Shown here piece after piece: positions 4,042-34,618 of a stretch of 64,000 nucleotides of DNA. Positions within the stretch are counted from its first letter, which is position 1. Every line of letters starts with the position of its first letter. The stretch is from a virus. Below the pieces are notes generated by a model. It was not told where the DNA came from. It saw only the letters and a list, made by a program, of their open reading frames with translations, and did no database searches. The stretch lies in the IMG/VR virus record IMGVR_UViG_3300032236_001232, positions 99,948 through 163,947 of that record, one strand, 5' to 3'. Both the position numbers and the translations under genes were made by a program.

Positions 4042-6108
4042 TTATGCCGCAAATAGGTTTCCGTTTAGGCCTCGGGTAGCAGTTAATGTGCGTTTACTAA
4101 CTTCTACCAGTTCTCGAACTGCCGATAGCATTTGACCATTAGTAGTATTTAACTGATTTATACTTTCTGCTAGCCCGTTCTGATTAGACACAGCAGACAT
4201 CATCGAAGTGAGATTGTCATTGCTAATAACATCGCCCCGAGCACCGAGATTTACTATTTCAGGACCACGTTCTCCAACTAGGTAAGATCCCGGAGTAGTT
4301 ACTCCACCCTTTTCTCTTTCCCCAGTTAATGGTGCTGCCGGTATCGCCGATTGCGACGGGGGTGAACTAAAAAATCTTTCATCGATTCCGTTTAAGATTT
4401 GTCTTACAATCCCTCCTGAATTTTCTGCACCACTAACAGCGCCGGGTGTTCCTTCACCAGCAGCACCTGGCTGATTCTCAAATAGTAAATTTGTCAGTGT
4501 TGGAATGGAATTCTTAATGTGGTCCATTACTCCATTCCACCCTGCTAACATATCTTTAAACAACTTTTCTTGAGCAGTTTTATCTCCGAGAGCAGCCGCT
4601 GTGGCAGTTTTTGCTAAGTCAAGAGCGTCGTTGACAAATTTTGTTATTTTTTCCCCAAGTTTGGTTGGATCCAACATGCCCTCTATTGCTGTCATTCCTC
4701 CTGCTTTATCAAACAACTGCTGTGTAAAAGATTCTATAGAAGTTATTATATCGGGTAATTTCTTAGCTAACGGTAATGCAATTTTATTGTTTAAAAACTC
4801 AGAAATACTGGTTCCTATTGTCAACGCACTTTTAAAAGTAGGTTCTAATGCTTTTAGAACCTTATTAGCATTGTCTATGGTTTGTTTTAACTGATCTGTT
4901 CCTATTGTTGCTTCTGTTTTTGATAGTTTCGAGCTGGCTACTAAACTATCTGTAATTTCTTTTATTTCTGCCGGGGTCTTGTTAGTTGTTGCAGTTAATG
5001 TTCTAACAATTTGCTCAATGGCTTTGCTAAGATCTGTGCCGCCTTGTAGTCCACCGGCGAGTAATACTGTCCTGATTTTATTAAAATCTTCTCGCACACC
5101 CGGAATCGAGTCTGCTAGAGATTTGCTAAATCTTCCTAGTGCATCCTCGTACTTAATGTTTCCATCTTTTGATATTGCTATTAATTCCTGCTGTCTTGCT
5201 ACACTGGCTTCTTGTGTAGCTGTAAACAATCTTGCCGCTTGAGTCATTGGTGGAAACCCAGCAGCCTGTGCTTTTAGTGCGTCTGCTCCTGCTTTACCGG
5301 TTACAGCAAGTTCTTGAGTCACTGCTGCTTGAAGTTTTTTAGCTTCTTCAGGATCGAGCGAAGCAAGATAATTTTGATATTGTGCTTCTGCCAGTTCCTC
5401 GGCAGCCTTTTCTGCCAATGCTTTTCTACTTTGACCTGTAAGATCGCTTAGGGCAGTTAATTGCACAGCATAATCAGCAGTAGCCTTTGCTATTTCTGTT
5501 TCACTCATCTGCCTGGCTTTGTTCATCGAACCTTGGCCACGCATAAACAATGCTGTCATCTCTGCTGCTTCTTGGAATCCAATACCAAGATTGGCCATCA
5601 TGTTGCTGGTCTCTGATCCCTTGGCCAGTAAAATGCCCTGTGTCCTAGCAAATGTTTCAGTTCCTGCTTGAACACCTCCACCAAAGGTAGTTAATATACT
5701 CGAGTTATCACCAACAACTTTTCCAAACTGATCAAGGCTAAGATAAGTTTTATTGGCAGTATCTCTCATGAGATCAAGTTTTCCGCCAAATGTCGCGCCA
5801 ACATTACTGAGAGTCTGCTGAGTTGCTATATTTTTTTCTAGTGTTGCTATAGCAGTGTTTAAAACAGAAGAAAAGGCTGCCCCTAGTGGCCCAAGTAAAC
5901 TGGCTACCTGCCCAACTGCTGCCCCCATATCCCCAAGACTTGCTGCCCCTGAAGCGGCCGATTTAGACATCGCAAATGATGAGGAAACAAACGTATTAAG
6001 TATATTAGAAATACCACTAGGGAGTTTATCAAGAGCAACCTTAGTCGCTATTGCAGCAGCTCCTAATCCTACTATTCCTGCTGTGGTAGTTGCTGCTTCA
6101 TCTGCCAT
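4042..6108 (-). CDS. Tail tape-measure protein
   Basis: A 688-residue, Ala-rich, largely helical protein with hydrophobic N-terminal segments (about residues 10-30 and 80-100) and long helical stretches (SETEIAKATADYAVQLTALS, KALAEKAAEELAEAQYQNYL). The C-terminal part carries GGVTTPGSYLVGERGPEIV (about residues 595-615), a motif typical of phage tape-measure proteins. The T4 functional equivalent is gp29 (590 residues). It sits head-to-tail with the portal gene and is divergent from the 6174 gene, whose frameshifted product looks like a tail-assembly chaperone. Such chaperones usually neighbour the tape measure. In T4, gene 29 lies in the baseplate cluster instead. Confidence 0.82.
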   Translation of the reverse strand: MADEAATTTAGIVGLGAAAIATKVALDKLPSGISNILNTFVSSSFAMSKSAASGAASLGDMGAAVGQVASLLGPLGAAFSSVLNTAIATLEKNIATQQTLSNVGATFGGKLDLMRDTANKTYLSLDQFGKVVGDNSSILTTFGGGVQAGTETFARTQGILLAKGSETSNMMANLGIGFQEAAEMTALFMRGQGSMNKARQMSETEIAKATADYAVQLTALSDLTGQSRKALAEKAAEELAEAQYQNYLASLDPEEAKKLQAAVTQELAVTGKAGADALKAQAAGFPPMTQAARLFTATQEASVARQQELIAISKDGNIKYEDALGRFSKSLADSIPGVREDFNKIRTVLLAGGLQGGTDLSKAIEQIVRTLTATTNKTPAEIKEITDSLVASSKLSKTEATIGTDQLKQTIDNANKVLKALEPTFKSALTIGTSISEFLNNKIALPLAKKLPDIITSIESFTQQLFDKAGGMTAIEGMLDPTKLGEKITKFVNDALDLAKTATAAALGDKTAQEKLFKDMLAGWNGVMDHIKNSIPTLTNLLFENQPGAAGEGTPGAVSGAENSGGIVRQILNGIDERFFSSPPSQSAIPAAPLTGEREKGGVTTPGSYLVGERGPEIVNLGARGDVISNDNLTSMMSAVSNQNGLAESINQLNTTNGQMLSAVRELVEVSKRTLTATRGLNGNLFAA

Positions 6109-6173: not shown

Positions 6174-7046
6174 ATGACGATTCAGGCAAAAGTAAACCCA
6201 TTACTCGGCTATATGAGACAGCCGAAGATCTATGTTCGATTACCAAGTAATGGATTCTTTTGGGAAGAGGGCAGTATTGATGTGCCCGAAAACAACGAAT
6301 TTCCAGTATATTCGATGACAGCCAAGGATGAATTAACATTCAAGACTCCGGACGCCCTAATGAATGGGCAAGCGGTAGTTGATGTTATTCAAAGTTGTAT
6401 GCCTAACATAAAAGATGCATGGAAATGTCCCGGGATAGATGTTGACCTTATTCTAATCGCAATTAGAATCGCTACATACGGCGGGACCATGACCATCTCA
6501 CATCAGGTTCCCGGGACTGATGAAACCGTTGACCACAGTATCGACCTTACTGCTGTAATGGATCAGATATTATCTACAACAAATTGGAATGAAACCGTAG
6601 AAATTAGTCCAGATATTACATGTGGTGTTAAGCCGTTAACATATAGGCAAATGACCGATGTAGGTATTAGGACGTTTGAATCACAAAAGACCATGCAGTC
6701 CGTTGCTAATTCCGATTTATCAGATGAACAAAAATTAGAATTTTTTAATCAAGGACTATCAAAGCTAACTGATCTTACAGTAGAAATGATTGCGGCCAGT
6801 ATATTTTATGTAAAGACACCCAATAGTTTTGTTGAAAATCGACAATTTATTCAAGAATTTATTCAAAATGCTGACGCAGTGTTAACGCAAAAGATTCAAG
6901 ACCTTATAACTGAAAACAAAAAGACAGTGGGTATTCTTCCAATAACAGTGCATTCTACCGAAGAGCAGATTCTTGCTGGTGCTCCTGTATCTTATGAATT
7001 ACCTATCACAATGGATAATTCCAATTTTTTCGTTCAAGGCTCTTAA
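6174..7046 (+). CDS. gp26-type baseplate/tail assembly protein (frame 0 product)
   Basis: This 290-residue protein resembles the T4 gp26-like baseplate protein family of T4-like phages. Characteristic stretches are PDALMNGQAVVDVIQSCMPNI and DVDLILIAIRIATYGGTM. It has a GGAG ribosome site and a perfect late promoter upstream. Four codons before its stop is the slippery heptamer T TTT TTC (7025-7031), followed by a stem-loop, and a -1 frame ORF without its own start continues to 7261. By analogy with lambda G/GT, the short form and the frameshifted long form (362 residues) would act as tail-assembly chaperones for the tape measure encoded next door. The gp26 label is moderately sure. Confidence 0.8.
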   Translation: MTIQAKVNPLLGYMRQPKIYVRLPSNGFFWEEGSIDVPENNEFPVYSMTAKDELTFKTPDALMNGQAVVDVIQSCMPNIKDAWKCPGIDVDLILIAIRIATYGGTMTISHQVPGTDETVDHSIDLTAVMDQILSTTNWNETVEISPDITCGVKPLTYRQMTDVGIRTFESQKTMQSVANSDLSDEQKLEFFNQGLSKLTDLTVEMIAASIFYVKTPNSFVENRQFIQEFIQNADAVLTQKIQDLITENKKTVGILPITVHSTEEQILAGAPVSYELPITMDNSNFFVQGS

Positions 7047-7085
7047 CATTATCTAATGATGAGATTATCAAATTAGTTGAGAGCC
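7025..7085 (+). promoter_or_regulatory. -1 programmed ribosomal frameshift signal
   Basis: The heptamer T TTT TTC (7025-7031) is in the correct zero frame (codons 7026-7028 and 7029-7031). After a six-base spacer (7032-7037), GGCTCTTAAC (7038-7047) pairs with GTTGAGAGCC (7076-7085): ten base pairs including one G-U. This is the textbook layout for -1 frameshifting. Confidence 0.82.
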
Positions 7086-7261
7086 ATGAAAAAGAATCAA
7101 AGGTATTAAAGAAAGAATTATTTAAACTGTGTTGGTATATGAGAGGATCTATTACCATAGAGCAAGCCTTTCAATTAGATTACGAAAGTAGAGAAATTAT
7201 TAGTAGTATTATTAGTGAGAACTTAGAAACAACAAAGGAAAGCGGACTTCCTTTCTTTTAA
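7031..7261 (+). CDS. -1 frameshift extension of the 6174 gene (tail assembly chaperone C-terminus)
   Basis: In the -1 frame an open stretch runs from 7019 to the TAA at 7259-7261. It contains no ATG, GTG or TTG near its beginning; the first ATG is about 120 bases in. It can therefore only be expressed well by frameshifting at 7025-7031. The 76 added residues include a helical, charged part (NDEIIKLVESHEKESKVLKK), WYMRGSITIEQAF, and the ending ETTKESGLPFF. This layout of a compact helical domain with a short aromatic tail matches C-terminal extensions of tail-assembly chaperones. Relation to T4 gp51, which neighbours gp26 in T4, is possible but not shown. Confidence 0.75.
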   Translation, partial: RSRLLTLSNDEIIKLVESHEKESKVLKKELFKLCWYMRGSITIEQAFQLDYESREIISSIISENLETTKESGLPFF

Positions 7262-7711
7262 TACTGAGAAGTGAACTGCGTTCACTTGATATTTCGCGCG
7301 AAGCGCTCATATCATATGGTCTTCTTCGAAGAAGATATTAATATTATCCAGATTCATTGGTCACACTTCGCCCGCACAGGGCGAAGAATATTGAACATTA
7401 TCCGAGTTCTTATGTTCACTTAGTGTTAGAGCGTTACAGAGGCGGTCATCCGGTACCTCGAGCTCCGTCTTCGATATGACGGCAGCATAACAATATACAC
7501 TAACATATTGGTATGCCCAGGGTTTTTCTCCCTTCTTTTAGCCTATTTTAATATTTTCTAACAATCAAACAGCAGGTCTTGGCTGTCTACATCCTTGCGG
7601 GTAGTGATTGAGAACTCTTAGCGGCAAGAGATTTCCGTCCCTGTGATACGATTGTCCAGGTTTAGGGCACTTGAAGTTGGCCAGTGCAAGCCTTAATACC
7701 GCGTGATATGC
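7262..7711. ncRNA. Candidate structured RNA region between convergent genes
   Basis: This is the only gap over 300 bases. No convincing ORF is seen, but strong inverted repeats fill it. They are an 8-bp hairpin at 7269-7287, a GATAT..ATATC hairpin with a GCGC inner stem at 7288-7313, a 16-base palindrome at 7320-7335, an 8-bp CTTCGCCC/GGGCGAAG hairpin at 7366-7386, TGAACAT/ATGTTCA at 7392-7418, a branched fold at 7420-7503, a three-way junction at 7562-7610, CTCTT/AAGAG at 7615-7630 and GCACT/AGTGC at 7667-7687. A run of seven T at 7715-7721 could terminate a plus-strand RNA, and TTGATA-N18-TATCAT (7286-7315) could start it. The strand is not settled and no known RNA family was recognised. 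Confidence 0.55.
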
Positions 7712-8137
7712 CTATTTTTTTCTTATATGACTACCGTGAATACGGCAGTTTATGATGCCATTGTAATAATCGTCTGATTCCAATACTTTGCGTTCAAACT
7801 GTTCTCGGGCCTCGATGTAACTGGTTTCTGCCTTGCTGCCACAATAATAAAGTATTTCTCTTGTGAAATTTTCTTTGCCTAGTTTAGATATGTCTTCATG
7901 GAGATTAGGACTGCTACCCCAATATTCTCTCCAATCGCTGTCTATTTTACTTTTAATTCGTTTTTTCTTTTTAGTGCCGTTTTTTAATGTAACTGTTTTA
8001 TATGTAGTTTTGCTGAATTTACTTAATTTTTTGCCTATGTATTTTCTGCCGGTGACAGTGTTGGTTATGATATAAACATAACCAACACAATCCTCGGGCA
8101 GTTCATCAATAACTGTACCTTGATAGGTCCAGGTCAT
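7712..8137 (-). CDS. GIY-YIG domain protein, conserved in T4-like phages
   Basis: A 141-residue protein with the GIY-YIG core near its N-terminus: GYVYIITNTVTGRKYIGKK (about residues 19-37), followed by a basic stretch (KNGTKKKKRIKS) and SDWREYWGSS. A later helix carries a Glu in the region SYIEAREQFERKVL, consistent with the catalytic Glu of the fold. Proteins of this size and layout are widespread and apparently fixed in T4-like phages, unlike selfish homing genes. It may be a repair or processing nuclease rather than a mobile element. It is last in the gp55-gp47-gp46 operon, three bases after the preceding gene. Confidence 0.78.
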   Translation of the reverse strand: MTWTYQGTVIDELPEDCVGYVYIITNTVTGRKYIGKKLSKFSKTTYKTVTLKNGTKKKKRIKSKIDSDWREYWGSSPNLHEDISKLGKENFTREILYYCGSKAETSYIEAREQFERKVLESDDYYNGIINCRIHGSHIRKK

Positions 8138-22048: not shown

Positions 22049-25000
22049 ATGGCATCTAAAGATATTAAATCGGTCAATTTACTACCTGAATTTCTAAGGA
22101 CAGATAAGAATTCTAAATTCTTATCCAGCACCATTGATCAGTTGATCAATCCGGCGCAATTAGAAAGAATAGATGGGTATATAGGTTCTGCTATTACACC
22201 TAATTATGTTTCCACTAGCGATATCTATGTTTCAGAAACATCGCAGCTACGTAGAGACTACCAGCTCGAACCTGCTTGTATTGTAAAAGACAGTCTTGGA
22301 ACCATAAACGATGTAATAGGTATCGATGATCTAACTAACGAGATCAGTCTTTATGGCGGCCATGTTGATAATTTTGATAGATTATATAGAAGTAATTTTT
22401 ACTCCTATGATCCTCATATTGATTGGGACAAATTTGTAAATTATCAAAATTATTATTGGTTAGTAACCGGACCTGATAATTTTATCATTACTGGTAATAA
22501 TCTCAACATAACAACGGATATACTTGGGCAACCAGCATATACCTATAACGGAACTGCTCTGCTAAATGGTATGAAGGTTAGGTTCGAAGGAACAGTTTCT
22601 CCTGAGTCATATCTAGGGAAGGATTTTTTTGTCGAAGGTGTAGGAACTGGAATAAAATTAATACCTTATGATAATTTAAGTTCTTCGGAAGCTATTACTA
22701 CGCTGTATATTGAACACTTTGATGCCGATCCATTCGATGATTATCCTTTTGATGGATATAAAAATCTACCAGAAACACCTGAATATATTACAATTAATAG
22801 AGCCAGTAGAGATTTAAATTCCTGGTCAAGATATAATCGGTGGGTTCATAAAGATGTTATCCGGGTTAGTGCTGAGTCAACAAATCAACAACCGGTATAT
22901 CCAGCTAACAAAAGAGCAAGACGTCCTATTATTGAATTTAAGGCAGATTTAAAACTATATAATCACGGAAATGTAGGTATTCCTGATGTTGATTTAATAG
23001 ATACTGTAACTACTGATGCGTTTAGTATTGTTGAAGGCTCGGCTGGTTATTATGTTGATGGTATTCTGTTAGAACAAGGTCATACAGTTATTTTCACTGC
23101 CGATACAGATAGTCTAGTTCGCAGTAAAATTTATCAAGTTAATTATGTAATTATTCAAGATAGAACAAGATTAGTTCTACAAGAAATAGCCGCACCTATT
23201 GCTGGATCTATAACCAGTGCTGTATTAGGTGATAAAAATTCTGGAACAAGCTGGTGGTTTGATGGTGATTATTGGGTCTATGCTCAACAACATACTACAG
23301 TAAATCAAGCACCCTTATTTGAGTTGTTTGATAATAAAGGACATAGTTATAGTGACATTAATTATTACAAGAGCAATTTTGCCGGTAATAAAATCTTTGG
23401 ATACGAAATAGGAACTATATACGATCCTATTTTACAATTTAAAATAAAATATAGAAACAGCGTTGGAACAGGCAGCTATCTGTTTAAGAACTATTTCATG
23501 ACAGATACCATTTCCATATCAGTTGATAGCCAAACTACTGACATAATTTCTACAGGTATCACCTATTGTAAGTTTTCCACAGCCAACGGGGACACTTATG
23601 CCAATGTTTGGTCTTTAGCAGATCCTTATCCTATTCCTACACTGGTATCTCCTGTTACTGGTGATACTTATTACGAACCACCGTTAGGGTTAACCAATAA
23701 TCCGCTAAACGGCGCAATTTCCAGTTTAACTCTAAGCGAAATAGCAGATCATGTAAACAATTCTTACCGTAGATTAATTTCAAATGTAAATCCTTTAGCA
23801 TTTGCTCAATTGTTTATTGGTAAAAAAGAACACAGTTTAATTGATGCTATTGATTTAGCTGCCGAACAATATAATCAATACAAGTTAGCATTCTTAAAGA
23901 AAATAGCTCAAATTGATAATCAAACAGATCCTGTGGCCGCTGTTGATCAAGCTCTTAATGAATTAAATTCTGATAAAGACACATTAAGTCCTTACTATTG
24001 GTCTGATATGGCTCCATATGGAACAGACAAGATAACGAGAAAATGGACAGTTACCAATAGCAGAAATAAAATTTATTCAATCACGTCCGACTATGATCCA
24101 GCAGTGCTTTCTATGCGGGCAGTATTGGTCTATCTCAATAGAGTCCAACTACTACGCGATATTGATTATACATTTGAAATCAATGATTCCAGTGTTAAAA
24201 TATTAGTAGATCTTACAGTCGGGGATACCATTGTTATTGACGATTATACCAATACCGTGGGTAATTTTGTTCCATCAACTCCTACCAAGTTAGGTCTATA
24301 TCCAAAATATACTCCTAAGATTTTTAATGATAACACTTACGTAGATCAGGAAACTGTAGTCATTCAAGGTCATGATGGTAGTATAATGATTGCCTATAAT
24401 GACTATAGAGATGCTATAATTTTAGAATTTGAAAAACGAATCTTCAATAATATCAAGGCAGAATATCGCAGTGAGTTACTGGACTCTAACACCGTTATTC
24501 CGGGAGCATTTAGAAATACACAATTTACCGTTGACGAAATTAAAGCGATTATCAATGGAGAATTTAATAATTGGGCAGGAATAAATGGTATTGAAATTAC
24601 CAATAATTCCGCATTTGATACGGGTAATCCATTTACCTGGAATTATACAAATACCTATAATTCCAATATAGATGAAAATCTAATAGGTAGCTGGAGAGCA
24701 ATTTACAAATATTTTTATGATACCGATCGTCCGCACACTGCTCCTTGGGAGATGTTGGGTATTGCTATTAAACCTGATTGGTGGGACGATCTCTATGGTG
24801 TTGCTCCGTATACTAGCGGTAATACAGTGCTTTGGGAGGATATAGCAGCAGGTAGAATCAACGGAACTGTTAATACTTTATATGTTCGAGATGGTCTACT
24901 AGATCTATTACCAGTTGACGAGTACGGAGACCTAGTAGATCCTACCGAATTAATTGTTCAAGACAACAGCATAACGCCTACTAAAATTAACAGTCTGTGG

Positions 25001-28000
25001 GCGTTTAATGAACAAGGACCTGCTGAAACCGCATGGCGTCGTAGCAGTTATTGGCCATTTGTCTTACAAAAATTAATGGCATTGACCAAGCCTGCTGATT
25101 ATGCTGCATTATTATATGATCCTATAAGATTAACAAAAAATATTTCTGATCAATGGTCCTACGGTGATGATCACAAATTTTTAAGTCCCGGAATAGTTAA
25201 AATACACGGCAATAACGGTGATATAACAACTGGTTATTCGGTATTTGTTAGTGAGGCAGGTCGTCAAAGAACTGGCAACTATATTAATGAATTAAGCAGC
25301 GATCTTTCTTATGTTGATTTTAATTTATTCTATAAGGTCGGCGGATTCATTAGCAAAAATAAGATGCAGGTCATTATAGATGCAATTGACCCTACCAGTT
25401 CTAGTTCAGGGGCAATTCTTCCACCTGAAGATTATTCCCTTATATTAAACACCAGTAACCCAGTTAAGGTAACAGCGATATCTGGTATCATTGTTCAAAA
25501 ATCCAATGGAAAGTTTATAGTCAGAGGGTATGATAATTTCAGGCCTTACTTTAACACTTATTCACCTGTTCGCAATGCCACCACTCCGACTATTACAGTA
25601 GGCGGAGTTTCACAACCTTTTGTCATCTGGAAGTCCAGTTCCTCTGGGGGTGAAACTGGATTAACTGATGCTGAAATTACTACAGCACAATCGGCAACAT
25701 ACGGAGTGTTCTATCAAAAAGGACAAATAGTTTCTTATAGTGATAGATTCTATCGAGTAAAGATTGATCATAAGAGCGGTGATACGTTCAATGCCAACTA
25801 TTTTCAATTGTTGCCTTCATTGCCGATAGACGGCGGTGTTAGTGTTCAAACAGCCATTAGATATGATAAAAAATTAGTTCAGATTCCATACGGAACAAAA
25901 TTTGATAAAATTCAGGATGTTTATGATCTTATTATTGGTTATGGCACTTGGTTAGAAGATCAAGGATTTATTTTTGATCAATTCAATAATGATTTACAAA
26001 CGATATTAGATTGGAAATTTTCCGGCAAAGAATTTTTATTCTGGACTACACAAAATTGGGCAGACAACAGTGTAATTACACTAAGTCCATTTGCTGATCA
26101 AATTAAATTCTATTCTACTGACAGTGTAGTTGATAATATTTTCAATAATTTCTATCGTCGGACAATATTGCAAGTTAACGGAAAAGCCTTTAGGAATAGT
26201 AATCTCAGCGTTAATAGAGATAATGGCACTTGCACCATTCGCACCAGCAATACTCCACAGGGAATATACTTTGCTGTTCTCAACAACGTTCAGAAAGAGC
26301 ATGCCATGGTGTTTAAAAACACCACAATGTTCAATGATACTATCTATGATATAGAAACTGGTTACCGTCAACGCCGAATGAAGTTGGTTGGTTTTAGAAC
26401 TGCTGGTTGGAATGGGGATTATTTTAGTCCAGGATTTATCTATGATGCCGCTGTAGTTGAAGATTGGAAAACCTATACCGATTACAGATATGCTGATGTT
26501 GTTAGATTCAATGGCAATTATTATTCAGCCAATAAAAATATTGCCGGGACTACTGCGTTTGATTTCAACAAATGGACAGTTTTAAGATCTAAGCCATCTG
26601 CAGATCTTATTCCCAACTTTGATTATAAGATTAGCCAGTTTGAAGATTTTTATAGTTTGGACATAGATAATTTTGATCTTGCCCAGCAAAAGATGGCTCA
26701 GCATCTCACTGGATATACTCCCAGGGTTTATCTAAATAATATCTTCACTAATCCAATTAGTCAATATAAATTTTATCAAGGATATATCAAAGAAAAAGGA
26801 ACTCGTAATGCTATCACTAAATTAGCCAAAGCCAGTATTCATAATCTTCAAGGAGATATAGAATACAATGAAGAATGGGCATTTAGAATAGGGCATTATG
26901 GATCATACGAAACTTTTAAAGAACTAGAAGTATCCTTGGTAGAGGGAACCTTTATAGAAAATCCCCAGATTGTTAAGTTAATTGACTCTGTGCCATCAGT
27001 TCCTAATGATTTAATTTACTACAGCACAGCGACCAGTTGGTCAATTGTTCCTACAGAATATGTCGCTAGCACAACATTTGTTACCACATCCAGCACTGAT
27101 ATTTTTCAGTTGCCTATTGCCGGTTATGTGAATTTTGATGACATTGAGTATACAGCATATAGCGAAACAGATGTGCTGGCTATTGCACAATCTGATAAGA
27201 CAATCAAGCGTGGAGATACGGTTTGGGTAGCTGCTAAAAAGAATAACGACTGGGGTGTATTTAGATATTCGTTGTCCAAGTCTAGAATAATTGGAGCCAA
27301 AGTCGAATTTGGCACTACTGGAGAGCTTACTCTAATAACAGATAAAACACATTATTTGTCAACGGGAGACATCATTGCTATCTACGAATGTGATAGTAGG
27401 ATTGATGGAATTTATACAGTAAAATCAGTTAATAAATTTACTGAGTTCACTATTGATTATGCTGCGGCTAACTCTATTACGTCTTTAGCTTCGACGGGAT
27501 TACTTTTTAAATTTGTTAATTCTCGTTATAGTTTCTACGATCAATTACCATCTGATAATACATTATTACAGTTTCCAATCAATACCAAAGTTTGGGTAGA
27601 CGATGATGGAACTGGAAATTGGGTTGTATATCAAAAAGTAAAAAATTACAATAGATATTCAGTGTCGGGAGCAACTACAGCTTCGAGAGAAGAATTAGGA
27701 TGGAGTTTAACCAAGGCTAAAAATTCTAATATTTTCATGGCAGGAGCACCGGGATATAAGACTGCCAACAACACAGGAACAGTGTTTGTTTATGCGGAAA
27801 AGCCCAACGGGGTTGAGATTAAACTTAGATATGGACTAAACGAAAGCACAGCCATTTATTATTCTCCTGGTTGCGATGCAGAATTTGGTTATTCTCTTGC
27901 CTATGATGACAGAGACTTTATAGGATCTGCTGGGTCTACTGGGTATGGATTATTTTTTGCCGGAGCCCCTGGTGCTAGCGGAACTAGATCCAATGATGTT

Positions 28001-31000
28001 ACAGCAGTTAGATACGCATATTCTACAGGAACAACCAGTGCCTATGTTCAAGAAGGTGCTGTAAAAATAAGTTCAGTTGATCCTATAACAGCCCAGGAAG
28101 ATACTCAACATGTTTTACTAAGCCCTAACCCATCTAGCTACGAAAGGTTTGGACACAGTCTTTATATTCAACAAATAACTACAGACGACAGTAAGATTTT
28201 GTTAGTAGGCGCCCCTGAGATTTATAATCAAGGGACTGGTAATGTTTATGCTTATCGGGTAACCGCTAACACAGTTACAACTGGAACAGTTAATTTAAGT
28301 TATATCAAATCACTTAATACCGCAAGTGTAGTGTTAAGTAGTGGCGATCAATGGGGTTATTCAATCGGTGGATCTGATGCAGCAGATATCGTAGCAATTG
28401 GGGCACCTGGGCATTCTGTAGCAGGAATAGTTTCGATCTTTACTGGAACAGGACTAACTTATTCTCAGACCATTAATTCTCCATTTGGTAATCACGGTAA
28501 ATTTGGATCAGTGGTTAAAGTTTCCCCCGATGGATCTTATCTATTTGTTTCGGCTATTGATGCAAGAGGTCAAGATCAATCTTATGGAAAAGTTGCAGTA
28601 TACACATCAACTAACGGTTTATTTGTATTAGACAGTATATTAGATAATCCCTTACCTACAGTAGGAATGAAATTTGGTCAGGCCATTGATATTAATGATT
28701 CTAATACTGAGTTGGTTATTTCTGCTATAGGTAAAAATAAATCAATCGTTACTACTTTTGATACCTATAAGGATTTATTAGCAACTCAACCTGATCCTAC
28801 TACTCCTTATGCTAACAATCCTGATAGCATAGTCCTTGACAGTAACACAATATTTGATGCTGACTCTACCACATTTTATGATTCATCTACAGATTCCGGA
28901 GCAGCATACATCTATAATAGAAAAACAAATAAATTTAGATTAACCTATGAATTGGCACCAGTAAATGCCAGTTCCGGCACTAATTTTGGTTATAGTGTTG
29001 CGGTAAATGCCAACAGCATTTATGTTGGTGCACCGGCTTATAGCAGTGATGTTCCTGGAGCCTTTCATCAATTTTATAAGATTAATACAGAATCAGATAG
29101 TCTCCGCGAAATTAGAAAGCAAACTGAATTGGTAGATTTAAGCACCCTTCAAAAAGTTTCTTTAATTGACACATTTAATGAAGAAGTTGTAGAGTATCTA
29201 GATACCATTGATCCTGTAAAGGGTAGAATTGCCGGGCAAGCAGATCAGGACATAAGATACAAATCATTAACAGATCCAGCAATATATTCTGTAGGCAGCA
29301 GTTCTACAGTAACCGATCCTAACACCAATTGGTTAGATAGTCACGTCGGTGAACTATGGTGGGATCTTAGCACAGTAAAATATGTGTGGTATGAGCAGGG
29401 CGATGCAGCATATAGAAAAAATAATTGGGGGCGTGTATTCCCTGGATCCAGCATTGATATTTACGAATGGGTAGGAACTCCATACCTGCCTAGCGAGTGG
29501 AGTCAAATTGCAGATACAGTAGCAGGCTTATCTCAGGGAATTAGCGGTCAGCCAAAATATGCAAACGATTCTGTATATTCTATCAAGCAGGTTTATAATT
29601 CTGCTACCAGCTCGTTTGAGAATAGATATTATTTCTGGGTAAAAAATAAAGTAACATTGCCCGATGTTAAAAACAGAAGAATTAGTGCTGATCAAATAAC
29701 CAGTATTATTTCTAATCCAACATTATACGGATTAAAATACGCTGCCATAATTGGACAAGATTCGTTCGCATTATCCAATGTGGGCGATATGTTAATAGAT
29801 GACAGAATACATATTAATCTCACATACGACATTATCAATAATCCTATTCCTCTTCATACAGAATGGTTATTATTACAAGAAGGATTAGCTACAAGTCGTC
29901 CAAATACTTTATTAGAGAAAAAATTACTTGACAGTTTATTAGGGCACGATAGTCTTGGTAATCCAGTTCCGGATCCTGCATTATCACCAAGAGCTCGCTA
30001 TGGAATCAGTATCAGACCTCGTCAGACACTGTTTAAAAATCGTTCAGAAGCTATTAGAAATATTGTAGAGTTTTCTAATAGTGTATTGATTGAAAATAGA
30101 ATAACTGGTAATTACAGTTTTGCTAATCTGAATAAACAAGAAGCCGTGCCCGGTGTCAACAGTGGAAGATATGATGAAATCGTTGAAGACAACGAAGGAC
30201 TGTTGGTCATTGACAATAGAAGTTTTGTAAGAGCAGAGTTGTCTTGTAATATCGAAAATGGTAAAATAGTCAGCATTAATATTGACAATGCAGGACACGG
30301 TTATAAGATCAGTCCTCTAGTTAAATTACCAAATAATACAGATTCTTCTGCAGAGATCAAAACAGTTATTGATTCAAATGGCAGTGTAGTTGATACAGTC
30401 ATCGTAGATGCTGGTGCTAAATTTAGCACAGCACCGACACTGGAAGTTAGATCTTATACAGCAATCGTATTAGCCGACAATGAAAACAATGGTAAGTGGA
30501 GTGAGTTTGTCTACGATGTTCCTAATAAATCCTGGGTGCGCTTACATACACAGAAATACAATACCACATTGTATTGGACATATCACGATTGGGTCAGTGC
30601 TGATTACAACCCGTTTGTAGATTATGCTTACACTGTTGATGAAATATATCAATTAGAATCATTAGAAGATCTAAAGGCCGGCGATTATGTTAAAGTTAAG
30701 AATGGCGGATTGGGATATTATATTATAGTAGAAAGAGTGCTCGATGGCATGATGGGTGATTTCAGTGAGAATTTTAATATTGTTTACAGTGAAAATGGAA
30801 CAATTCAAATATTAGATACCGTTTGGAATTTTGCCAATAGTAATCTTAATTTTGATCAAACCAATAGTTATGATCAAACACTGTATGATCAAACACCTGA
30901 TATTGAATTAAATTATATTCTCTTAGCGTTAAGAGATGATCTATTTGTTAACGATTTAAAAGTTAATTGGAATCTATTATTCTTTAAATCAGTAAAATAT

Positions 31001-34000
31001 GCACTAAGTGAGCAGAAATTATTAGACTGGGCGTTTAAGACTTCGTTCATCAATGTGGTTAACAATGCTGGAACGCTAGACCAACGAACAGTATATAAGT
31101 TACAAAATGCCGAATACTTTGAAGATTATATTAAAGAAGTCAAGCCTTACCACACTAATATCAGAAGTTTTACCAGCAAATATAGTGTAGAAGAACCAAG
31201 CGCAACATTTACAACTGACTTTGATCTTCCTGCCTATTATGATCAAGCCGCTAACCAATTTACCAGTATAGAGATTCTTGCTAGTGAAAGTTCGTCGTTA
31301 TTTACTATAACCAACACTTTAACTAATGTGTATCCTTGGAAATCATGGACCGATAATTATCTAACCAGCGGGACTGTTCGCACGAATCTTATTGGGATGA
31401 AGTTTGACCGAATTAGTAGAGGGCCTGAAATTAGCAATGTTACAACTGTTGATAATTTTATCTGTAATGGTTCTGATAATGAATTTGTATTAACATGGGT
31501 GGCACAACCTAATAAATCTCTGATTACAATTACATTAGATGGTTCATTAGTTTTGGGGTCTGATTATACAGTGACTTACTATGACGAAGATTATGGTCAG
31601 TTTGCAGGCGAATACTACAAGAGTAGAAATAAAATTGTATTCTTAAATTATACACCAAATGATGGACAAATCTTAACGGTGTCTTACTATAAGAAAACTG
31701 ATTCATTAAATTCTATAGATAGAATTTTAAATTATTATACAGCAACTTCTGGTATGCCTGGGTTAGATCTCGGGCAGTTGATGACAGGAATCGTATATCC
31801 TAAAACACGAGTCGAAGGATTAATGTTTGATTATTCCACAGATTGGGATGTGTATAGAGGATTTGATACAACATCATATGCTGACAGTGTTGGATTTTAT
31901 ACCAGCACAACTGCTAGTTCTGCTTCTTCATTAATTGGAGGAACATGGACATCGATTCAATTGTCTAGCACAACTGGAGTTGCCTTGGGACAGTATGTCA
32001 ACGTAGCCAGCACATTAACACAAATCTTCACAACTGCTACAGTTAGAGTGGTTGGTATAAACACAACTACTAATATTGTTAAGTTTAATACCACAACATA
32101 CACAACAATTCCATTAGGTTCTACTATAGAATTTTGGACACTAGATTCTGAAATGAGTATTCTTGACAGTGCTATTGAAGGTGGCACATGGAATACTTCT
32201 ACAAGAATAGGTGCCTTAGGAATTAACCCAGAAGATATTATTATTGATGGTGATGGTTTTATTACTCCTAATACTAGCTATGCACCAGAAGAACTAGTTC
32301 CTGGCGAAGTTAACGAAAGTTTAGGAATAAATGTTTACACTAAAAATCCACAAGGTGGGCCCGTTGTTCTTAGCTCTTATGTTAATATTTCAGCAGGGAC
32401 AACTACTACCAGTGTGTTAGGAATTGTCCCTCCAAGTTCTGATAATATCATAGTATCGTTTAATAATACTATTTTTACCTATATTACAGGCACTAATTTT
32501 ACCGCTAATACTTACACTATTAATTGGGCAACTAATGAGCTCGTTGTTCCACCGCAGTCTGTTAGTGGCAATTTAGGTTATACTATTGTCAGCATAGGTG
32601 GTGGAAGACACGATCAAGAAGCCGGAGTGATAGATTCCTCCAGCGTTTCTGTTATTGGAACATCCACAGTTCAGGCACAGAGTTTATCCTCTTATCAAAC
32701 TGTGAAAAGTGCTTATGTAACAGTTAACGGGCAGAAAATTGAGTCCACAGGAACCGGTGTTTATTATGAATTAACTTATGCTAATTCAGTTAACCGTAGA
32801 GCTGCTGTTAATGTTTATAGATTGCCTATTGATAAAACCAATACTGTAACTGCATGGTTCTTTGGAACATATAACAAATATTTTAATGAAGTTAAGGAAG
32901 AAACATTTGCTATTACTGGTAGCACCTATTACACATTGTCTTATCCTCCGGGTAATATAGAGCCGGTAGCAGAAGAAGCCATTGTGGAATTATACGATCC
33001 TGCCACTGGGTATCGTAACATTCTCAGACCTCCACATACTGATTATTATAAAGTTGTTAATCTTTACAGCACTACATTCCCAATTAACAATACAGGAACC
33101 TATACTCTAGGTAGCAAGTTAAGAGTATATGTTAATGGTATTGAACTAAAACCAGGATTTGAATACAGTGTAGTAGGTGGAACACAGGTTGCAATTAATT
33201 TTGGTATCTGTCAGGTCAATGACGTAGTAGCCATATTATCGAAGCCGGCAACACCTAACTATGATTATGATATTGTAGGTAATGTATTATCGTTAGAGCC
33301 GGGATTCTCCACCAGTAAACAGCTCAAAGTTATCACTTATACTAACCATGATAACATGTTTATTAGAACAGAGCAATTCACGGGTCTTGCTGGTCGTAGA
33401 TATCAAATCAGCCGTCCGGCACTGAATGACAATTATGTCTGGGTTATTGTCAACGGTGTTCCTTTAGTTAATAAACTAGATTATGAAATACTGGATGATT
33501 TTGTAACAGTTCAAATAAGTTCGAGATTTGAGCATACAGCAAGCGATAACATAACCATCATATCGATCAGCGACTCACCGTTGGCTACCACTGTGTTGGG
33601 TTATCGTGTATTCAATGACATCTTCAACAGAACACATTTTAAGAGACTAAGCAAACAGAATACTACATACTTGACACGGCCATTATCGTTTACTGATACT
33701 GAGATATATGTAGCAGATGCCAGTGTATTAACTCCACCTCTAGTGTCTAAAAATATGCCCGGTGTTGTAATTATTGACGGTGAAAGAATTGAATTCTTTA
33801 CAGTTACAGGTAATGTTCTGGGGCAGTTACGCAGAACAACATTAGGAACAGCACCTAGCTTTCACAGTGAAGAAAATACCAAAGTTATTGATCAAGGGCT
33901 TGATCAAACAGTTCCGTTCAAAGAAAATATCTACAAACAGGTATTATTAACTTCAACATTGACTAATACCTATTCAATTAGCCCAACTAATTATGTTGTC

Positions 34001-34618
34001 AATACCGGAACATACCATCAATTTACCAATGATGGAATAACTTTTGTCGATGGTATTGATGCCAAGGATCAAGTTGAAGTCAATTACGGTGGTAGACGAT
34101 TAAGCAAGGTAGGAACTTTCTACCAAGATATTTCTGTATTCCCAGACACTCCTAAATTCAATTATCTAGGAACTGTTACATCGGTTAGTCTATTACCAGC
34201 AACCACAGCAATAGGTGATGGGTATATTGTAACCGATTCAAATCAAGTTTGGATTTATGAAAATTCCACTGAATTACAATCAGTAAATGGATATGTCTAT
34301 CATGGGCTGGATTATAGAGAGCCAGAGTTTACTATAGATATTGATTCACAGCAAATTACGTTAAATATTGAAAATGGAGTTCAGGAAGGGGTTAAACTTA
34401 CCTTGGTTAAACGTGAAATTTCTTCGGTATGGAATGATCAAATCAGTTCCGAATCGACTAAATCTTTAATGGAGAGTAGCACAACCCAGGCCAAGTTCTT
34501 ACAGGCCAGACCAGCCGAACTACCAGATAAGTATTATTATGGAGGTGATCCTGCCCTTGCAGGCGATGATGGATACGCTATAACCACTGATCAAGACCAG
34601 CCGCTAGAAGGATATTAA
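22049..34618 (+). CDS. Giant 4189-residue baseplate/tail structural protein with FG-GAP propeller
   Basis: One uninterrupted frame of 12.6 kb. The N-terminus ([40 protein letters not shown]) matches giant virion proteins that follow gp6 in marine T4-like phages, in the place of T4 gp7. Seven FG-GAP-like repeats ([12 protein letters not shown] type) occur at about residues 1896, 1969, 2051, 2114, 2161, 2221 and 2324, the number needed for an integrin-alpha-like beta-propeller. The C-terminal third (about 3000-4180) is rich in short beta units such as [14 protein letters not shown] and [14 protein letters not shown]. The likely role is the outer wedge and fibre attachment; a glycan- or protein-binding propeller is inferred. 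Confidence 0.8.

Follow-up and report, generated by a model that had tools for sequence, protein, structure and literature searches.

The locus and its features

The window, a stretch of 64,000 nucleotides (positions 99,948 to 163,947 of the 164-kb IMG/VR virus record IMGVR_UViG_3300032236_001232), carries a gp26-type gene that is overlapped at its 3' end by an open reading frame (ORF) in the -1 frame and is adjoined by a divergently oriented gene for a probable tape measure protein. The features of the locus are the following.

4042..6108, minus strand: probable tape measure protein, divergent neighbour; 688 aa, VGERGPE near the C-terminus, match to phrog_14121 (2.6e-7)
6174..7046, plus strand: short-form gene (TAC-N), gp26-type, PF12322 T4_baseplate / phrog_150; 290 aa, assigned by profile and fold matches
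7019..7261, plus strand: -1 open frame; from 7025, putative TAC-C of 78 aa, FFRSRLL...CWYMRG...GLPFF
7025..7031, plus strand: predicted -1 frameshift site, slippery heptamer T TTT TTC, assigned by sequence and by conservation in 94/94 clade loci
7032..7037, plus strand: spacer of 6 nt, assigned by sequence
7038..7047, plus strand: 5' arm of the stem, GGCTCTTAAC, spanning the zero-frame stop TAA at 7044-7046
7076..7085, plus strand: 3' arm of the stem, GTTGAGAGCC, pairing with 7038-7047

The 290-aa protein matches the PF12322 profile with 37.7 bits (cut-off 24.5; E 2.3e-9) and phrog_150 with 5.2e-12, and over its whole length its fold matches those of T4-like baseplate hub assembly proteins (46 viral models at E <= 0.001), the best match being a "Baseplate hub assembly protein, bacteriophage T4-like" with a TM of ~0.85. 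A preliminary description of this DNA had placed T TTT TTC in register four codons ahead of the stop of this gene, and the coordinates re-derived from the sequence agree: the heptamer follows the X XXY YYZ pattern, T(7025) TTT(7026-7028) TTC(7029-7031), and is followed by GTT CAA GGC TCT TAA, that is, by four sense codons and the zero-frame stop. The 6-nt spacer and the 10-bp stem described there were both recovered; one of the stem's pairs is U-G, and the 62 nt downstream fold with a z-score of ~ -5. The -1 frame is indeed open to 7261 and lacks a usable start, as its first ATG, at 7139, lies inside the conserved domain and no ATG, GTG or TTG precedes it. Its product reads FFRSRLLTLSNDE...CWYMRG...GLPFF, and the protein sequence across the slip would be ...SNFF-RSRLLTLSNDE.... 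The heptamer is the sole homopolymeric A/T heptamer in the 164-kb record that is linked to a -1 extension of more than 50 codons.

In the gap past the -1 ORF, short perfect inverted repeats are clustered at 7269-7420 (AAGTGAAC/GTTCACTT, TCTTCTTC/GAAGAAGA and CTTCGCCC/GGGCGAAG). Just downstream of the frameshift locus, a Polynucleobacter-1 RNA (RF01718, an Rfam sRNA family) is located at 7559-7692 on the minus strand (106 bits, E 8.8e-24); it is also present in the equivalent neighbourhood of 9 of the 13 tested relatives from the window's clade (L003, L006, L008, L013, L024, L030, L038, L041 and L087) and seems to be an RNA carried by these jumbo phages. Other genes of the window include one resembling GIY-YIG homing endonucleases (7712-8137, minus strand; PF19835 SegE_GIY-YIG, E 4.4e-32) and a 4189-aa ORF (22049-34618, plus strand) that matches phrog_10938, "virion structural protein", with 1034 bits.

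Conservation of the slippery site

Two independent similarity queries of IMG/VR, one with the -1 ORF and one with the gp26 protein, supplied the relatives of the window; the slip site is covered by one of the six search peptides of the gp26 query and by none of the -1 ORF query. In the resulting clade, TTTTTTC is in register in 94 of 94 distinct loci (the window counted), and the distance to the zero-frame stop varies. The heptamer is likewise in register in all 74 loci of the P-SSM2-like set, retrieved with P-SSM2 as the query, and in all 66 loci retrieved with phiM12 and GAP32 (55 with TTTTTTC and 11 with TTTTTTT). The clade comprises 53 clusters at 70% identity, and clustering at 50% protein identity, carried out separately inside each of the three locus sets, yields 16 clusters for the clade, 1 for the P-SSM2 set and 19 for the phiM12/GAP32 set. 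All 234 distinct metagenomic loci, many of them less than 50% identical, thus combine an in-register TTTTTT[C/T] with a conserved -1 ORF, and such agreement among the compared sequences excludes a chance origin of the arrangement. Because TTC is the minority Phe codon outside the site (21% of Phe codons in the window clade and 15% in the P-SSM2 set), T TTT TTC would rarely be expected from codon bias. Named phages with the signal include GAP32, 121Q, PA5oct, CBB, BF, XbC2, Atu_ph07 and Phosso, as well as P-SSM2, S-PM2, KVP40 and Aeh1, so that it spans jumbo phages of the Rak2/GAP32/PA5oct/Atu_ph07 type, cyanophages, KVP40 and Aeh1.

Two exceptions were observed. Vibrio phage D531 (L252) and Aeromonas phage phiA8-29 (L253) possess a gp26-type gene and a -1 ORF, and the heptamer is replaced by CACTTTTCA and GACTTTTCA, respectively; the second ORF of D531 has a TAATG start, and that of phiA8-29 has no start nearby. 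A search of IMG/VR for relatives gave none for D531 and, for phiA8-29, phiA8-29 itself only.

Candidate stimulatory RNA elements

At least 8 of the 10 pairs of the window's stem are kept in 25 of 73 clade loci, where C-G pairs are exchanged for A-T or T-A; these compensatory changes occur within a subclade, and the stem is not universal. Given its retention in these 25 loci, the other loci of the clade probably use other structures, and across the clade the 62 nt downstream of the site fold better than shuffled sequences (mean z -1.6). An SD-like stimulator was sought in the window clade, and none was found there. All 22 representatives of the P-SSM2-like phages carry a strong SD-like sequence 7-9 nt ahead of the heptamer (median -9.8 kcal/mol), and a hairpin follows downstream (mean z -2.7). 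The P-SSM2/S-PM2-like cyanophages (L151, L152 and L160-L239) present a dnaX-like three-part cassette, in which the hairpin starts ~5 nt past the heptamer.

Selection on the -1 frame and alternative readings

In the clade, pN/pS amounts to 0.33-0.54 for the -1 frame; for the zero frame it is 0.54-0.99 and for the +1 frame 1.15-1.8, most values of these two frames lying at 0.8-1.8. All are rough because synonymous sites are near saturation, and the low -1 values persist in the nine loci without a start codon ahead of the conserved centre. Directly past the slip, FFR is invariant and RxRLL is nearly invariant in the -1 frame of the clade, upstream of any start. These substitution patterns indicate purifying selection on the -1 frame. 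The alignment of related loci proposed in the preliminary description accordingly recovers the heptamer and a -1 ORF under such selection, also where it lacks a start codon, and the window's stem in about one third of the clade.

Independent downstream starts, which the preliminary description had named as a refutation of frameshifting, do occur in part of the relatives, as an ATG is found close to the junction in 74 of 74 P-SSM2-like loci and in 19 of 94 window-clade loci, but every ATG-bearing locus of these two sets retains the heptamer. Taken by themselves, these ATGs would suit a separate small gene coupled to the upstream one by a stop-start overlap (ATGA or TAATG); the downstream ORF is so annotated in Phosso, 121Q, BF and RHph_I1_9 ("baseplate hub assembly catalyst", short gp51), and D531 combines TAATG with the absence of the heptamer. 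Such a separate gene is nevertheless very unlikely, since the first 10 codons lack ATG, GTG and TTG in 45 of 94 clade loci and in 41 of 55 marine loci, the -1 residues are conserved ahead of any start, and the SD-like element of the P-SSM2-like phages, situated 7-9 nt before the heptamer, is by inspection ~24 nt from the ATG.

Bacterial RNA polymerase slippage usually needs longer runs than the one present here. The seven-T runs of phiM12, HTVC008M, Melnitz-3 and others would be compatible with polymerase slippage and with shifted transcripts that give the long form, but in the window and most of its relatives the run is of exactly six T with C as the next base, the form predicted for tandem tRNA slippage, and the register, the downstream stem and the SD-like element fit ribosomal slippage, which makes a transcriptional origin of the long form extremely improbable. 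Conservation of FF merely as protein, with the -1 ORF as a decaying or non-functional overlap, has a negligible probability and is, as far as sequence tells, refuted by the conservation data: FF is also kept in several T4-type gp26 without a -1 ORF, but there, as in T4 gp26 itself, it is encoded by TTC TTT, versus TTT TTC or TTT TTT after T in 234 of 234 one-gene loci, and purifying selection acts on the -1 frame.

The neighbouring tape measure candidate

The statement of the preliminary description that the gene sits next to the tape measure finds moderate support, in that the adjacency holds and the identity of the neighbour is probable. Besides the 688-aa protein's own match to phrog_14121, the phage BF member of this family matches three tape-measure PHROGs at ~3e-6; the 688-aa protein is the sole carrier of a VGERGPE-type motif among the record's ORFs of at least 300 aa, and the divergent neighbour is kept in 61 of the 87 loci with enough flank. 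Virion mass spectrometry of phage CBB detected the corresponding neighbour, CBB_251, with 29 peptides, and the gp26-type CBB_250 does not appear in the virion list between CBB_247 and CBB_251 (PMC5259590). The record of PA5oct similarly has an ESI-MS/MS tag on the neighbour and none on gp26. These virion lists indirectly support the combination of a tape measure with a non-virion chaperone, and the 688-aa neighbour is probably the tape measure.

Relationship to T4 gp26 and gp51

T4 gp26 and gp51 both match PF12322 and are thus paralogs, gp51 consisting of a complete PF12322 domain (residues 1-201) and a tail. Named T4-like phages have -1 ORFs that are homologous to this tail and align with it from the FF slip site onwards (hhalign 96.8%, E 2.5e-10); the matches of the tail to the -1 domain of the jumbo phages (26%, E 7e-4) and to that of the window clade (probability 5.8%, E 0.0066) are weak. 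In a direct profile comparison of the window-clade -1 domain with the cyanophage -1 ORFs, the match was too weak as well. The tie of the window clade to the gp51 tail consequently runs via intermediate families, the direct match being so weak.

The T4 genes and the window's gene belong alike to the PF12322 family, and the gp51 tail has homologs in the -1 domains of T4-like relatives; the T4 genes differ in being two separate genes with no frameshift and no heptamer, and in the two-gene phages the heptamer is absent and the -1 frame is closed. In a gp26/gp51 tree, rooted at midpoint only, the one-gene and two-gene families are split with 97/96 support, gp51 forms a single group (100/99), and next to the two-gene branch lie two frameshift types, KVP40 and Aeh1, which belong to the ICTV family of T4. 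The midpoint-rooted topology fits a single duplication in the T4 lineage. The proposal that gp26/gp51-type proteins are a frameshift pair describes the short and long forms across T4-like relatives, but T4 itself uses two genes.

Proposed mechanism and comparison with phage lambda

The gene very probably gives rise to one tail-building helper protein in two lengths, and it is highly likely that a jumbo T4-related phage encodes its tail assembly chaperone in this way, the two forms arising by a -1 slip. From the signal and its register, the -1 ORF, the selection acting on it, the conservation, the gp26/gp51 paralogy and the homology of the gp51 C-terminus to the -1 ORFs of T4-like phages, all read from sequence, we infer frameshifting and its rate, the chaperone function and the binding partners. 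Most ribosomes would stop at 7044-7046 and produce the 290-aa TAC-N, and a fraction would move one base backwards on U UUU UUC, assisted by the stem 6 nt downstream, and produce a TAC-NC of ~362 aa with a C-terminal domain that lacks its own start codon. If lambda gpG/gpGT is taken as the model, both forms would coat the neighbouring tape measure protein, aid polymerisation of the tail tube protein around it and then leave. In T4, the same pair would be made from two genes after duplication, gp26 corresponding to the short form and gp51, as an in-frame fusion, to the long form.

The slippery heptamer of lambda is G GGA AAG. The design that the preliminary description likened to lambda G/GT agrees in the predicted production of two products from one gene by -1 slippage near the 3' end, in the absence of an own start for the long-form domain and in the proximity of the probable tape measure; it differs in the heptamer, T TTT TTC, and in the orientation of the tape-measure gene, which is divergent in the window and downstream in lambda. 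Fold and sequence searches of the gp26 and gp51 models against PDB for lambda/HK97-like chaperones gave nothing significant, and with no such match the protein is best described as working like gpG/gpGT and not as its homolog.

Discussion

Vladimirov and colleagues reportedly described frameshifting in several T4-like groups, genes 26 and 51 being distinct in the T4 group. For T4-like phages, the core idea appeared in print earlier (Vladimirov, Gautam & Davidson, Virology 2022, 566:9-15), in a study whose title and use are confirmed as reference 76 of PMC12846349, and in the record of phage Konradin (MN648195) gp26, gp51 and gp28 are annotated as "tape measure protein assembly chaperone"; both precede the preliminary description, and its suggestion is not novel. 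That gp26/gp51-type proteins are chaperones made by frameshifting is nonetheless supported, with the qualification for T4, by the conserved heptamer, the register, the -1 ORF and its selection. The chaperones reportedly described in the 2022 study resemble the window's gene in the gp26/gp51 type, the poly-T slippery site and the TAC-N plus TAC-NC products, and the window clade differs in its strongly diverged C-domain. The window is a distant further case of an already-known chaperone type.

Earlier observations can be read along the same lines. A review on T4 counts gp26 and gp51 among the chaperones of hub assembly; it describes gp51 as essential, as having an unknown function and as not present in the finished particle, and it also cites a study that locates gp26 in the hub (PMC3004832). 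In a comparison of 26 T4-like genomes, Sullivan et al. (2010) found the cyanophage gp51 truncated to ~20% of the normal length with a conserved C-terminus, and gp51 missing in Aeh1 (PMC3037559); the short cyanophage gp51 and the "missing" gp51 are explained if these are -1 ORFs, one of which is present in Aeh1. Tail assembly chaperones with a poly-T -1 site have also been described in phage Adele of the Vandenendeviridae/Andersonviridae, which are similar in having an overlooked downstream frame adjoining the tape measure and different in their GTTTTT motif (PMC12846349).

We lean slightly towards a scenario in which a one-gene UUUUUU[C/U] frameshift was ancestral to all T4-related contractile-tailed phages, jumbo phages included, and was replaced once in the T4 group by the duplication that gave genes 26 and 51, the C-domain of the window clade (CWYMRG) being strongly diverged or different and lying beyond the 2022 set. 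The additions offered here are the extension to jumbo lineages and the window clade and the survey of 234/234 loci. They would identify, at the level of mechanism, a gene whose product is named a baseplate hub protein in databases; the downstream "hypothetical" or "short gp51" ORF would usually be half of a longer protein, and the long form would have been missed by annotation pipelines in many genomes. T4 offers the natural comparison between a chaperone pair made via recoding and one made via gene duplication.
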